Below, one piece after another: positions 2,537 through 17,260 of a stretch of DNA of 64,000 nucleotides. Made by a program: the position numbers and the translations under genes. Positions within the stretch are counted from its first letter, which is position 1. Every line of letters begins with the position of its first letter. The DNA lies in NCBI GenBank assembly GCA_949505625.1, contig CATBQD010000002.1:93650-157649 (forward strand), given 5' to 3'. The DNA comes from an uncultured Bacilli bacterium. Its GTDB lineage: Bacteria; Bacillota_I; Bacilli_A; RF39; UBA660. The notes under the pieces were generated by a model. The model saw only the letters and a program-made list of their open reading frames with translations, had not been told where the DNA came from and made no database searches.

Positions 2537-3538
2537 ATGAAAAGTAAAGAAATTTATAAACAATATAGAAAAAGCTGTTTTCTTAATATGGATTTTAAAC
2601 ATTTAATATTTTCTTCTATGGTAAATTGTGCTTATTTTCCATTTAAAATATATGAAAAAGAATTACCGTTTTCTAAAGAAAGAAGTTTATTAACAAAATA
2701 TATTTATGCTTATTTTCGTATATTAGATGATATGATAGATGACGAAACTGTGGAAAGTATTTTTTATGGTGATTTTGAAAATATAAAAAGACAAAAAGAG
2801 GAATATTTGCTTAAAAAAATAGAGTTTATAAAACGAAAAAGTAGTCCAAATGATAATTTAGATATACTAATGAATGATATCTTAGCTTTTGCAGATAAAA
2901 TTGGAGTAAATATTGAAAAGGAATGCATCTCAGTCATTAAAAGTTTATTATTTGATGTTAAAAGAACGAGCGATATAAAAAACGGTCAAATTATTTTAAG
3001 CGCTAGAAATGAAATTTTAAGATATTATTATGATTGTTATATGGCATGTCATAAAATCGGAGTAATTGTTACAAGTGCTGAAGAATATGACGAGATATTG
3101 TTACAAAATTTAGGATATGTTAGAAGAAATTATTTTATTTTAAGAGATTTCTTTGAAGATATTAATAGAGGATTAATAAATATTCCTATAGAAGATGTAA
3201 ATAATCTTGGCATTTCAGATGAAATGTTTATTTCATTAGCAAATTTAAATGAACATTTAATAATTGAACTCAAAAGAAAAGGATTTAATCATCCTTCTTT
3301 ACAACAATACATAAATCCACAAATAGAAATGTGGTTAAATGAATTATTAGAAAAGTCGATACGCTTATTAAATGATTATCAAAATAGTGCTAGGATTAAA
3401 ACATATATTGATTTGGTTTGTGAAGTACTATTTTATAAAAAAAGTTTATCAGATGTTATGGTTAAATTAATGTTAGAGGATACAACATCATGTTATTTGC
3501 GAAAATTAAAATTACACAGAATAAAAAATAAATTATAA
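2537..3538 (+). CDS. Squalene/phytoene synthase-like (trans-isoprenyl diphosphate synthase, head-to-head type) protein
   Basis: RILDDMIDDE acidic motif and NYFILRDFFEDINRGLINIPIEDVNNLGIS, resembling the SQS/PSY second motif (LRD..ED...G...P.edl...g). Confidence 0.6.
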   Translation: MKSKEIYKQYRKSCFLNMDFKHLIFSSMVNCAYFPFKIYEKELPFSKERSLLTKYIYAYFRILDDMIDDETVESIFYGDFENIKRQKEEYLLKKIEFIKRKSSPNDNLDILMNDILAFADKIGVNIEKECISVIKSLLFDVKRTSDIKNGQIILSARNEILRYYYDCYMACHKIGVIVTSAEEYDEILLQNLGYVRRNYFILRDFFEDINRGLINIPIEDVNNLGISDEMFISLANLNEHLIIELKRKGFNHPSLQQYINPQIEMWLNELLEKSIRLLNDYQNSARIKTYIDLVCEVLFYKKSLSDVMVKLMLEDTTSCYLRKLKLHRIKNKL

Positions 3539-3577: not shown

Positions 3578-3606
3578 AATCGAACTAAGAAGTTCGATTT
3601 TTTAAT
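3578..3606 (+). terminator. Rho-independent terminator
   Basis: AATCGAACT aaga AGTTCGATT followed by T-run. Confidence 0.75.
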
Positions 3607-3688
3607 GGTTAAAAGCACTTTATTCATTTATCTTGCTTTTTTTAGAATTTTAGTGTAGGATAACAACTACATTAAAGGGGGCTGTTAT

Positions 3689-5245
3689 ATGACTTTTTGT
3701 CAAGATATATATGATATGCTATGTAGAAGACATCCTGGGAGTAAAATTTATGTAATTGGGGATCATCATTTTTTTCATAAGAATATTATTGAGTATACAC
3801 GAAGCGAATTTGATAATATAGAAGCAATGAATGAACATATTATAAATGCTCATAACGAAGTAGTAGGGAAAGATGATATTGTAATATTTTTAGGAGATTT
3901 TTGTTTTAAAAATTCTATGATAGGTCCATTTTGTGCTAGTATGAATGGTCATAAATATTTGATATTAGGGAATCATGATTTAGGAAGTTTAGAAAAAAGA
4001 TATCATTCTTTAGGGTTTGAAGGAGTTTATACCACTCCTATTAAAATTAATAATGGATTTTTGTCTCATGAACCATTGATTAAAGGTGAAAAGAATGATT
4101 TAACATTTCAAGGAATATTAAGTGAGTTTGTTAATTATGATGGTGGAGTTAATTATCATGGTCATATTCACGAAAATTGTGGTAATATCTCTGCTGCATA
4201 TATAAATGTGACATGTGAGGCACAAGCATATAAACCAATATTGATTGGAGAAACTCCTAATATAAAAACCACTAATGGAACATCCTTATTCATCAATACT
4301 GGCGAATTTGAAAAGGCTTGTGGCATGATTCATAAATCATTTTGTTTTGATGGAAAATTACTTTTGGATGATTATATTTATTCAATGATGCTTGAGAGTT
4401 TAACTTCTTATTATAATCAAAGTTTTGTTCAAGGTTCTTTTGGATTATGTAAAAAATATGGTTATATATCTTCATTTTCTGATCTAGATATATCCTGTTT
4501 TTATGATCCTTCTAAAAGTAAAAATAAAAATTTTGGCATGTTAAAAACGATTTCGGATGAAATGTATGAACATTTGAAAAATATAGATGGAATCAATTTA
4601 GAGTTTTTTAAAAGGTTTTCGAATTTAAGAATTTTTAGTGCTTCACTGGCTAGAGATAATGCTACTTTTTCTAAATGTTATTCAGATATGAATTTAATAC
4701 TTTTAGATTGTTATAGAAGTTCCGATTTTCTAGATTTGTGTGGTGGAACTTTAATTGAAAAATTTCTTTCTAAAATTGATTCTTCAATGTTAACAGATTT
4801 TTGTTTTCCGCGATTTCATGTACAGACATTAAAACCTGTTGGTGATATTTCTAATTTAATTCTTCAAATGCTGTTTCAAGAAGAAAATGCTTCAAAAAAA
4901 GCATTGGCTTTAAAAAAATTGCACTATGTTTATAAACATGCTATAAAAGATGAAGTATTAGAGAACTTTTTAGATACTTTTATAAGATTCTTTTTACGAA
5001 ATGTCACTCTTTTAGCATCTTGGGGAAGGACTGGAGAAGTAGATTATATCAGAGAACAATTTTCAAATTTACATTCTTTAATAGAACATTATATTAGAAC
5101 GATCCCAGAACCTTTAATAGGACAAATATATGATGTACTTACAAATCCTAATTCTTTATTTTTAGAAGTATATGAAGAACTTATTAGTACTCCTTTAGAA
5201 CAGACTTTTGATAGCTGTACAAAAATAATGAGAAAATTAAAATAG
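3689..5245 (+). CDS. Metallophosphoesterase fused to nucleotidyltransferase-like domain
   Basis: N-term calcineurin-like motifs IGDHHFFHKN, LGDFCF, LGNHD, YHGHIHE; middle GSFGLCKKYGYISSFSDLDI resembles the NT signature GSx(n)SDxD; helical C-terminus. Confidence 0.65.
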   Translation: MTFCQDIYDMLCRRHPGSKIYVIGDHHFFHKNIIEYTRSEFDNIEAMNEHIINAHNEVVGKDDIVIFLGDFCFKNSMIGPFCASMNGHKYLILGNHDLGSLEKRYHSLGFEGVYTTPIKINNGFLSHEPLIKGEKNDLTFQGILSEFVNYDGGVNYHGHIHENCGNISAAYINVTCEAQAYKPILIGETPNIKTTNGTSLFINTGEFEKACGMIHKSFCFDGKLLLDDYIYSMMLESLTSYYNQSFVQGSFGLCKKYGYISSFSDLDISCFYDPSKSKNKNFGMLKTISDEMYEHLKNIDGINLEFFKRFSNLRIFSASLARDNATFSKCYSDMNLILLDCYRSSDFLDLCGGTLIEKFLSKIDSSMLTDFCFPRFHVQTLKPVGDISNLILQMLFQEENASKKALALKKLHYVYKHAIKDEVLENFLDTFIRFFLRNVTLLASWGRTGEVDYIREQFSNLHSLIEHYIRTIPEPLIGQIYDVLTNPNSLFLEVYEELISTPLEQTFDSCTKIMRKLK

Positions 5246-5361: not shown

Positions 5362-6129
5362 CTATTTTGAATAGGTTAGCTTTTTTCCTTCTATAGCAAT
5401 TTCTGTATTTGGAAAAACATTTTGTGCTTCTTTTAAATATGCTTCTTTATTTTCTTCTGGCCAAAAATGAGTGAGAAGTAATTGTTTTGCATGTGCTAAT
5501 TCGGCAATTTTAGCAGCTCTAGAAGCTGTCATATGGGTTGTACTATTAGAGTTATGAGTTTTTAAAAATGAGCTTTCACAAATAAGTAAGTCAGAATTCT
5601 GTGCAAATTTTATAATACCTTCTATATTGTTTGTTCCAATATCTGATGTATATACTAGTTTAAATTTCTGACTTTGCAATTTTATCATATAAGATTCAAT
5701 TGTATGAGAATGGTTATCTTCAAAGCTTATCATAAAATCACCAATTTGATAGGTTTGCATGTTATGAATTGAATGATAATCGGCAAAACTTTCTTCATTT
5801 GCGAGAATAGCAGCTCTATTAAATCTAAAATCATGATCTGGCATATAAATTTGGATTTTTTGATCTAATTGCCCTAAGTTATGATGACAGAAAGATGCAT
5901 ATTGTAATGCACCAATATCACCAATATGGTCATTATGGAAATGAGTAAGAAAGATATGCAAATTATTTAAATCATTTGGAAGATGGAGAAATCTTACAAT
6001 TCCGTTTCCACAGTCTAATAATATTTTATAATCTTGAAACTTTATTAAAAAGCCTGGACAGTTCATATTTTTTTTAGGATAGGGTGAAATAGTACCTAAT
6101 GGTATGATTGTAATTTTCATTCTGATCAA
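5362..6129 (-). CDS. MBL-fold metallo-hydrolase (RNase Z-like)
   Basis: FLTHFHNDHIGDIGAL (HxHxDH) motif; YTSDIG. Confidence 0.85.
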   Translation of the reverse strand: MIRMKITIIPLGTISPYPKKNMNCPGFLIKFQDYKILLDCGNGIVRFLHLPNDLNNLHIFLTHFHNDHIGDIGALQYASFCHHNLGQLDQKIQIYMPDHDFRFNRAAILANEESFADYHSIHNMQTYQIGDFMISFEDNHSHTIESYMIKLQSQKFKLVYTSDIGTNNIEGIIKFAQNSDLLICESSFLKTHNSNSTTHMTASRAAKIAELAHAKQLLLTHFWPEENKEAYLKEAQNVFPNTEIAIEGKKLTYSK

Positions 6130-15301: not shown

Positions 15302-15377
15302 TGCCTCGTAGCCAAGTGGTAAGGCATCGGACTCTGACTCCGACATTTCGCTAGTTCGAACCTAGCCGAGGCAGCCA
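15302..15377 (+). tRNA. tRNA-Gln (anticodon CTG), CCA encoded
   Basis: TGCCTCG/CGAGGCA acceptor, TCGGA-CTCTGAC-TCCGA anticodon arm, TTCGAA T-loop, CCA. Confidence 0.93.
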
Positions 15378-15394
15378 AATATATATGGAATAAG

Positions 15395-15585
15395 CATTGA
15401 ATAAGAAGAGTATAATAGTAGCTTTTTTAAAGAGACTTCATGGTTGGTGGAAATGAAGAAAAAGCCTATTAGAAGAAGCTTAGGAGCTTAAAAACGTTGA
15501 TGGCGTTAACATGAAGAGATAATAGAAATATTATGAAGTAAGGTGGTACCGCGAAATTTCGCCCTTACAACATAATATTTTTTTG
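15395..15585 (+). promoter_or_regulatory. T-box leader upstream of gltX
   Basis: AAGGTGGTACCGCG at 15540-15553 (T-box antiterminator core), followed by GCGAAATTTCGCCCTTAC and T-run. Confidence 0.88.
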
Positions 15586-15607: not shown

Positions 15608-17260
15608 ATGACAAACAAAGAATTAGCCAATTTAATATTTCCAAATATTACAAAAAGTATAGAAGATTATGAGAATTTATATCCAAAAAGAAATTTAGAT
15701 GAAAAAGCAGTTGTTACCAGATTCGCACCTTCTCCAACTGGATTTGTACATTTAGGTTCTTTATTTTCTTCATTTGTTGCTAGAAAAGTAGCAACTCAAA
15801 CAAATGGAGTTTGTTTTCTTCGAATTGAAGATACAGACCAAGAGAGATTAGTAGAAAATAGTGTAACAGAAATCATTCGTGATTTAAAAGATTATCATAT
15901 TGAATTTGATGAAGGAATGACTAGCGAGACAGAGGAAAAAGGAAGTTATGGGCCTTATATTCAGAGCAAGCGAAAAGATATCTATCAGACATTTGCAAAA
16001 CATTTAATTGAAGAAGGACTGGCTTATCCATGTTTCTTAACAGAAGCTGAATTAGCAGAAATCCGTGAAGTACAAGAAGCATCAAAAGAGAGAATTGGAT
16101 GTTATGGAAAATATGCGAAATATAGAGATTTGCCAAATGAAATGGTTACAGAAAAAATTAATAATGGAGAGCCATACATTATACGTTTAAAATCGCCTGG
16201 AAATTTTGATAAAAAAGTGGCTGTGAATGATTTAATTAGAGGAAAAATAGAATTTCCAGAAAATGATTTGGATATCGTAATTATAAAAAAAGATGGACTA
16301 CCAACTTATCACTTTGCCCATTTAGTAGATGACTATTTAATGAGAACTACTCATGTTATTAGAGGAGATGAATGGGTATCTTCTTTACCTGTACATATTC
16401 AGTTGTTTCAAGTATTTGGATTTGAAGCACCAAAATATGCGCATCTTTCACCACTTATGAAAATTGATGAAGAAACAGGAGGAAAAAGAAAACTAAGTAA
16501 GAGAAAAGACCCAGAATTGGCAGTTAGTTATTATCATGAAGCAGGAATTCCAGAAGAAGCAGTTTTACTATATTTGATGACAGTAGCAAACTCTAATTTT
16601 GAGGCTTGGTTTGATGCTAATCCAAATGCTTCTATAGAAGAATTTACTTTCGATTTTAAAAAAGTAAGTGCAAGTGGAGCTTTGTTTGATTTAGAAAAAT
16701 TAAACAATATTTCTAAAAATTACATTAGTAAATTAAAGGCAAGTGAAGTATATGATAGAACACTTAATTATGCCAAAGAATTCGATTTAGAATTCGCTTC
16801 TATTTTGGAAAAATATCCAGAATATTCTACTTCTATTTTCAATATTGAAAGAGAGCAAAAAAAGCCAAGAAAAGATTATGCAACATTTAAAGATGTAAAG
16901 AATGAAGTTTGGTATATGTATGATGAATACTTTACTGGAGATTTAAACTATGAATTTGGTAAGGTTAATGATAAATCAGAAATTCATACAATTTTATCTA
17001 CTTACTTTACAAAATATTATAATCCTATGGATGATAAAGAAACTTGGTTTAATAAGGTAAAAGAATTATCGAATGAATTAGGATATTGTCCTGATATGAA
17101 AGAATATAAGGCAAATCCTGATGCTTATAAAGGAAATGTAGCAGATATCAGTACTGTGATTCGTGTTGCTCTTACTTCTAAATCACAAACTCCAGATTTG
17201 TATGAAATTTTAAAACTTTTAGGAGTAGAAAGAATTCAAAATAGAATTTCTAAGTTTTAA
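15608..17260 (+). CDS. gltX: Glutamyl-tRNA synthetase
   Basis: RFAPSPTGFVHLGSLFSSFVAR, FLRIEDTDQERLVENSV, GGKRKLSKRKDPE. Confidence 0.95.
   Translation: MTNKELANLIFPNITKSIEDYENLYPKRNLDEKAVVTRFAPSPTGFVHLGSLFSSFVARKVATQTNGVCFLRIEDTDQERLVENSVTEIIRDLKDYHIEFDEGMTSETEEKGSYGPYIQSKRKDIYQTFAKHLIEEGLAYPCFLTEAELAEIREVQEASKERIGCYGKYAKYRDLPNEMVTEKINNGEPYIIRLKSPGNFDKKVAVNDLIRGKIEFPENDLDIVIIKKDGLPTYHFAHLVDDYLMRTTHVIRGDEWVSSLPVHIQLFQVFGFEAPKYAHLSPLMKIDEETGGKRKLSKRKDPELAVSYYHEAGIPEEAVLLYLMTVANSNFEAWFDANPNASIEEFTFDFKKVSASGALFDLEKLNNISKNYISKLKASEVYDRTLNYAKEFDLEFASILEKYPEYSTSIFNIEREQKKPRKDYATFKDVKNEVWYMYDEYFTGDLNYEFGKVNDKSEIHTILSTYFTKYYNPMDDKETWFNKVKELSNELGYCPDMKEYKANPDAYKGNVADISTVIRVALTSKSQTPDLYEILKLLGVERIQNRISKF

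Follow-up and report, generated by a model that had tools for sequence, protein, structure and literature searches.

What does a bacterium do with a phosphoesterase and a nucleotidyltransferase (NTase) joined in one chain? The question is raised by a single open reading frame at 3689..5245 (+, stop codon counted in) of the window, the 64,000-nucleotide stretch of DNA analyzed here (G+C ~27%; host genome 1.49 Mb), which opens with ATG and encodes 518 amino acids. The first-pass annotation of this DNA had read the product as a metallophosphoesterase (MPE) fused to an NTase-like domain, and motifs, profiles and catalytic residues invariant in 20/20 homologs bear this out; we regard the two-domain assignment, MPE plus AbiEii/MenT-like NTase, as very probably correct, with both folds predicted from models. 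Our preferred answer, to which we give a probability of roughly 35%, is that the protein works alone as a bifunctional enzyme on the 3' ends of RNA, probably of tRNA, either healing and tailing them or serving as writer and eraser. Among phage-defence and toxin families, that of the AbiEii/MenT NTases is one of the commonest, and the reversal or restraint of their tRNA modification is only partly known; the fusion offers a direct test of whether a phosphoesterase in cis can undo or prepare nucleotide addition at RNA ends. We found no paper describing an AbiEii-MPE fusion in a literature search of incomplete coverage, and the architecture is apparently undescribed so far.

By its motifs and family model, the N-terminus (residues ~15-188; 3731..4252, +) is a calcineurin-like metallophosphoesterase with predicted enzymatic activity. 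The superfamily motifs DxH, GD, GNH(D/E), H and GHxH are all present, as GDHHFFHKN (D25, H27), GDF (D70), GNHD (N95-H96-D97), SHEP (H127) and GHIHE (H159, H161), and the calcineurin-like motifs noted in the first-pass annotation are not due to chance: the Pfam model Metallophos (PF00149) is matched at 31.6 bits against a cut-off of 21.5, and the phosphoesterase family phrog_547 at E 3e-38 over residues 15-188. The residues expected to bind metal or act in catalysis are D25, H27, D70, N95, H96, H127, H159 and H161, and D25, H27, G69-D70, G94-N95-H96-D97, H127, G158-H159 and H161 are invariant in 20/20 homologs. The closest relative of solved structure is Aquifex aq_1665 (PDB 1xm7; sequence E 7e-6, fold E 2.2e-6), and the full motif set is common to the fusion and to proteins of this kind, which we take to be COG4186. 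These COG4186/phrog_547-type relatives are mostly short proteins consisting of the MPE only, whereas in the fusion the MPE forms the N-terminal third. Stand-alone relatives are carried by many phages, and our literature search found no RNA substrate for the COG4186/aq_1665-like subfamily.

The second domain (residues ~196-350; 4274..4738, +) carries the motif GSFGLCKKYGYISSFSDLDI with G249, S250, D265 and D267. The Pol-beta-type pattern hG[G/S]x(9-15)DhD is matched by G249-S250-x14-D265-L-D267, together with an invariant third acid, D333, which is assigned by its invariance and strand position rather than from a ligand-bound structure; D340 (in LDCY) was rejected for this role, since it varies and D333 does not. 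The second metal-binding acid is thus present across homologs (D265 and D267 in 20/20, with D333 as well), and the GS..SDLD region holds up as a Pol-beta-type NTase. PADLOC AbiEii profiles match 9/10 homologs (best E 9.5e-10); Pfam, run on 10 homologs at E<=1, gave no match to PF08843 (AbiEii) and one weak Polbeta match, in 1 of the 10, and PF08843 has no match in the host genome either. A profile of the C-terminal domain was run against two overlapping sets, 395 genomes from the class and 392 from the phylum. Besides the fusion family it recovers stand-alone proteins whose genes immediately follow one that is AbiEi-like/DUF6088 or similar, the arrangement of AbiEii. In hhalign, the C-terminal domain of the fusion aligns to stand-alone AbiEii-type proteins at 28% identity over 71 columns (E 9.6e-9), with LFINTGEFEKACGMIHKSFCFDGKLLLDDYIYSMMLESL...QGSFGLCKKYGYISSFS-DLDI of the fusion family set against LHKNPQEFSDTLLAVAKHLHTSPAIIEKDYYVTMFLEKL...KGGTSLSKCYQLIHRFSEDIDL on the AbiEii side. 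A reading of phrog_19731 as a separate phage family was rejected, since it matches many of the loci that AbiEii matches.

Structure prediction agrees with the profiles. AlphaFold2 models built on ten sequences (whole protein, pLDDT 85.8 and pTM 0.87; C-terminal part alone, pLDDT 92.4 and pTM 0.89) show the NTase fold, and Foldseek against the PDB places MenT3/TglT (Rv1045) at the top for both (E 1.4e-6 and 3.2e-6), with a TM of about 0.5 for the C-terminal part; the solved structures searched with the C-terminal profile gave no match. An identity as cGAS or CD-NTase was rejected, since cGAS and CdnC rank well below MenT3 (TM about 0.25), and viral fold matches (TM about 0.3) were set aside as evidence. 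Aminoglycosides or lincosamides are the substrates of many small bacterial Pol-beta-type NTases that are followed by a helical domain, and the protein might by analogy be an antibiotic-inactivating NTase with the MPE as accessory hydrolase; we hold this to be very improbable, as Pfam and NCBIfam gave no match to an NTase family for either drug class, and the top fold matches include none.

The C-terminus (residues ~355-518; 4751..5242, +) is helical in the AlphaFold2 models, as had been supposed at first reading, and has P374, N389, R433, N438 and R447 invariant. It fits MenT only loosely. A HEPN/MNT-like tail was rejected, because it is without Rx4-6H, there is no invariant His past residue 161, and no His is conserved near R437-N438.

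The fusion shares with AbiEii/MenT proteins (DUF1814, PF08843; e.g. MenT3/TglT Rv1045) the N-terminal helices and an NTase core with hG[G/S]...DhD. AbiEii motifs I and II read hG[G/S]x15DhD (PMC3985639), against x14 in the fusion, which is the same motif one residue shorter, and hhalign aligns the two. The fusion differs from these proteins in its attached MPE, the lack of an antitoxin gene, its other helical tail and the missing PF08843 match. The toxicity of Streptococcus AbiEii requires the motif I Gly, the motif II Arg and both Asp, the motif III Lys/Arg and the motif IV Asp (PMC3985639), and MenT1 requires D41, K137 and D152 (PMC10435456). The fusion family retains the motif I Gly and the motif II Asp residues, but the motif II Arg is not conserved (position 262 is S/A/T/K/R/D/N/I in homologs, versus R in 10/10 aligned AbiEii). 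Nor do we find the motif III Lys, whose aligned column, beside the invariant N389, is L in nearly all homologs and never Lys, or the motif IV +DxxD, whose aligned Asp column is K/R in a helix with no conserved Asp; both of these calls rest on an uncertain alignment, because profile comparison of the C-terminus detected no similarity to AbiEii past residue 350. Past that residue we noted just two conserved candidates for a Lys or Asp/Glu, K/R410 and D/E386, and neither fits the AbiEii pattern. The fusion protein is not a bona fide AbiEii toxin, and the lost toxicity motifs call for caution in assuming toxin action.

The same residues bear on an alternative in which toxin and restraint would form one polypeptide switch. 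Here an AbiEii-derived NTase would write nucleotides on tRNA or another target, stopping translation in the case of tRNA, and the fused MPE would erase the modification or activate the NTase by dephosphorylating it; such a chain would resemble a toxin-antitoxin pair with no separate antitoxin, a self-contained abortive-infection or addiction module. The ancestry of the NTase in AbiEii/MenT speaks for it, as does the documented switching off of MenT toxins by auto-phosphorylation of the active site (PMC11375011), and S264, next to D265, is invariant. AbiEii loci elsewhere in the class adjoin an antitoxin-type gene, unlike the fusion loci, where the MPE would fill that place; no AbiEi/MenA antitoxin or other conserved partner lies beside the fusion in about 24 loci. 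We nonetheless find this alternative rather unlikely, since the motif II Arg, III Lys and IV Asp, mutation of which abolishes the toxicity of AbiEii or MenT1 (PMC3985639, PMC10435456), are not conserved. A defence role, which the first-pass annotation had raised along with a stress function, is possible through the AbiE lineage of the NTase, and has against it the same residues and the lack of an antitoxin partner. A relative with neither antitoxin gene nor toxicity motifs but with a fused MPE would show how a toxin is turned into a self-contained enzyme.

The loss of motifs III and IV with retention of the carboxylates can also be taken to suggest a changed substrate, and the NTase might then place an NMP on a protein or small molecule from which the MPE would take it off. 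The GlnD uridylyltransferase/uridylyl-removing enzyme is a precedent for a single chain that both writes and erases, and HD-domain CCA-adding enzymes likewise combine an NTase with a phosphohydrolase. This is an analogy only, as the hydrolase of both is an HD domain and that of the fusion an MPE, and the architectures are not homologous. The helical tail, with its invariant R433, N438 and R447, might serve such a modifier as a new domain for binding its substrate; against this, no conserved neighbour gene offers itself as a target, the NTase core is closest to families acting on RNA, and we judge the proposal unlikely.

To see whether both halves have been kept, we compared homologs. The 385 genomes of the same order hold ~20 full-length or near full-length fusions, all in one family, and there is besides one more distant named fusion (L043, 34% identity). 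The fusion architecture is retained in 20 full-length homologs, of which nearly all belong to a single family of gut Bacilli with small genomes; the publicly named homologs are uncultured Tenericutes/Bacilli MAGs, and we take the group to be that of the RF39-like gut bacteria. Shorter matches in the 385 genomes are mostly MPE-only proteins, and no intact NTase half standing alone was recognized there. On the NTase side, G249, S250, K255, K256, S264, D265, D267, K308 and D333 are invariant in the 20. Pairwise dN/dS values (Nei-Gojobori, several pairs having near-saturated dS) span 0.11-0.19 in the MPE half, while the NTase half gives 0.11-0.34, and purifying selection acts on both domains. Because the catalytic residues are invariant in 20/20 and dN/dS is low in both domains, both activities appear, as judged from sequence, to have been kept.

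The gene is patchy in its distribution, sometimes decayed, and found near mobile-element genes. Broken copies include one with a stop between the halves (L053), one with a frameshift (L059), a remnant (L063) and a truncated copy (L062). This pattern would suit a self-restrained toxin; on the other side, the fusion was not found in the phage and plasmid record collections searched, and no defence-island context is consistent among loci. No copy of the fusion was confirmed in the viral contigs searched, and with the absence from both collections a phage or plasmid origin was rejected. In its own genome the fusion gene sits in an accessory block that starts left of the window with genes for a large serine recombinase and a Mob/Pre relaxase (L080:3791-7713). 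In a congener without the fusion (L076), the recombinase ends after its first 107 residues and the gene for an MBL-fold protein comes right after it, which suggests that the whole block was lost there. At 98-1477 (+; L080:7836-10127) lies the gene of a DUF4379 treble-clef repeat protein, whose phage relatives are homing-endonuclease-like; its full ORF of 763 aa starts left of the window.

The neighbourhood was rejected as a functional clue. The nuclease-like and HExxH genes, earlier taken as a hint of function, are not conserved beside homologs, and a survey of homologous loci found no neighbour family shared beyond close relatives. The convergent gene 3' of the fusion (5362-6129, -) encodes an RNase Z-like MBL-fold protein (NCBIfam E 1e-35, below the cut-off) with weak similarity to Apyc1. 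RNase Z is reported to be a deAMPylase (PMC12663964). A partnership with the fusion was rejected, because the MBL gene is syntenic in genus members whose examined locus is without the fusion gene. Genes for tRNA synthetases (SerRS, ThrRS, IleRS) lie near the fusion in some genomes and seem enriched; since thrS and serS lie close to each other in L042, this proximity probably reflects shared ancestry, most cases going back to one ancestral thrS-serS locus, and we set it aside as an independent signal. T-box control was likewise rejected, as no T-box or other Rfam element lies directly upstream of the fusion gene.

Between the upstream gene and the fusion gene, a terminator-like hairpin with a T-run (3578..3607, +), a weak match with 1 found against 0.6 expected, suggests that the fusion gene may be on a transcript of its own, and the gene looks monocistronic. 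A purine-rich, ribosome-binding-like AAAGGGGG precedes the start (3674..3681, +), with similar start-proximal G-rich runs in most homologs. In the start regions of many homologs (e.g. window 3674-3681), the ribosome-binding site is AAGGGGG, not AAGGAGG. Because there is no conserved partner gene and the gene looks monocistronic, both steps probably take place within one polypeptide.

The simplest reading is that one enzyme acts twice on a single substrate, in steps that are sequential or chemically opposite. Because the nearest relatives of the NTase by profile and fold are AbiEii/MenT, the substrate shared by the N-terminal binuclear-metal MPE and the C-terminal NTase would most likely be a 3' end, that of tRNA or of some other RNA. 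MenT toxins lengthen the acceptor ends of tRNA (PMC10435456, PMC11541572), and of the earlier suggestion of a signalling or nucleic-acid-end-modifying enzyme, the end-modifying part fits these relatives, of which the members studied work at tRNA 3' ends. In the RNA-end enzyme, the NTase would use an NTP to attach an NMP to a free hydroxyl, and the MPE would hydrolyze a phosphoester at the same end. If it heals ends, the MPE would clear a 3'- or 2',3'-cyclic phosphate before the NTase restores nucleotides; if it writes and erases, the MPE would take off the nucleotide that the NTase had added. We infer that each half is active, that the two work on RNA, and which reaction comes first. Since the AbiEii motif II Arg, III Lys and IV Asp are not conserved, the substrate preference may have moved off tRNA. 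In Pnkp-type RNA-repair enzymes an MPE heals 2',3'-cyclic or 3'-phosphate RNA ends within a multidomain enzyme, which again is an analogy only, their transferase being a covalent ligase-type nucleotidyltransferase with a kinase and that of the fusion of Pol-beta type.

Other features of these loci stand on their own. Directly 3' of one divergent fusion homolog is a defence-like pair of an AAA_21 ATPase and RloB (L061:290-2489). Upstream of the fusion gene, 2537-3538 (+) encodes a lone 333-aa protein with a weak likeness to squalene/phytoene synthases (best NCBIfam E about 0.01) and the motifs DDMIDDE and DFFEDINRG, unusual for such a gut bacterium. Further along the window, at 15302-15569 (+), a tRNA gene is followed at once by a T-box leader, upstream of a glutamyl-tRNA synthetase-like gene at 15608.
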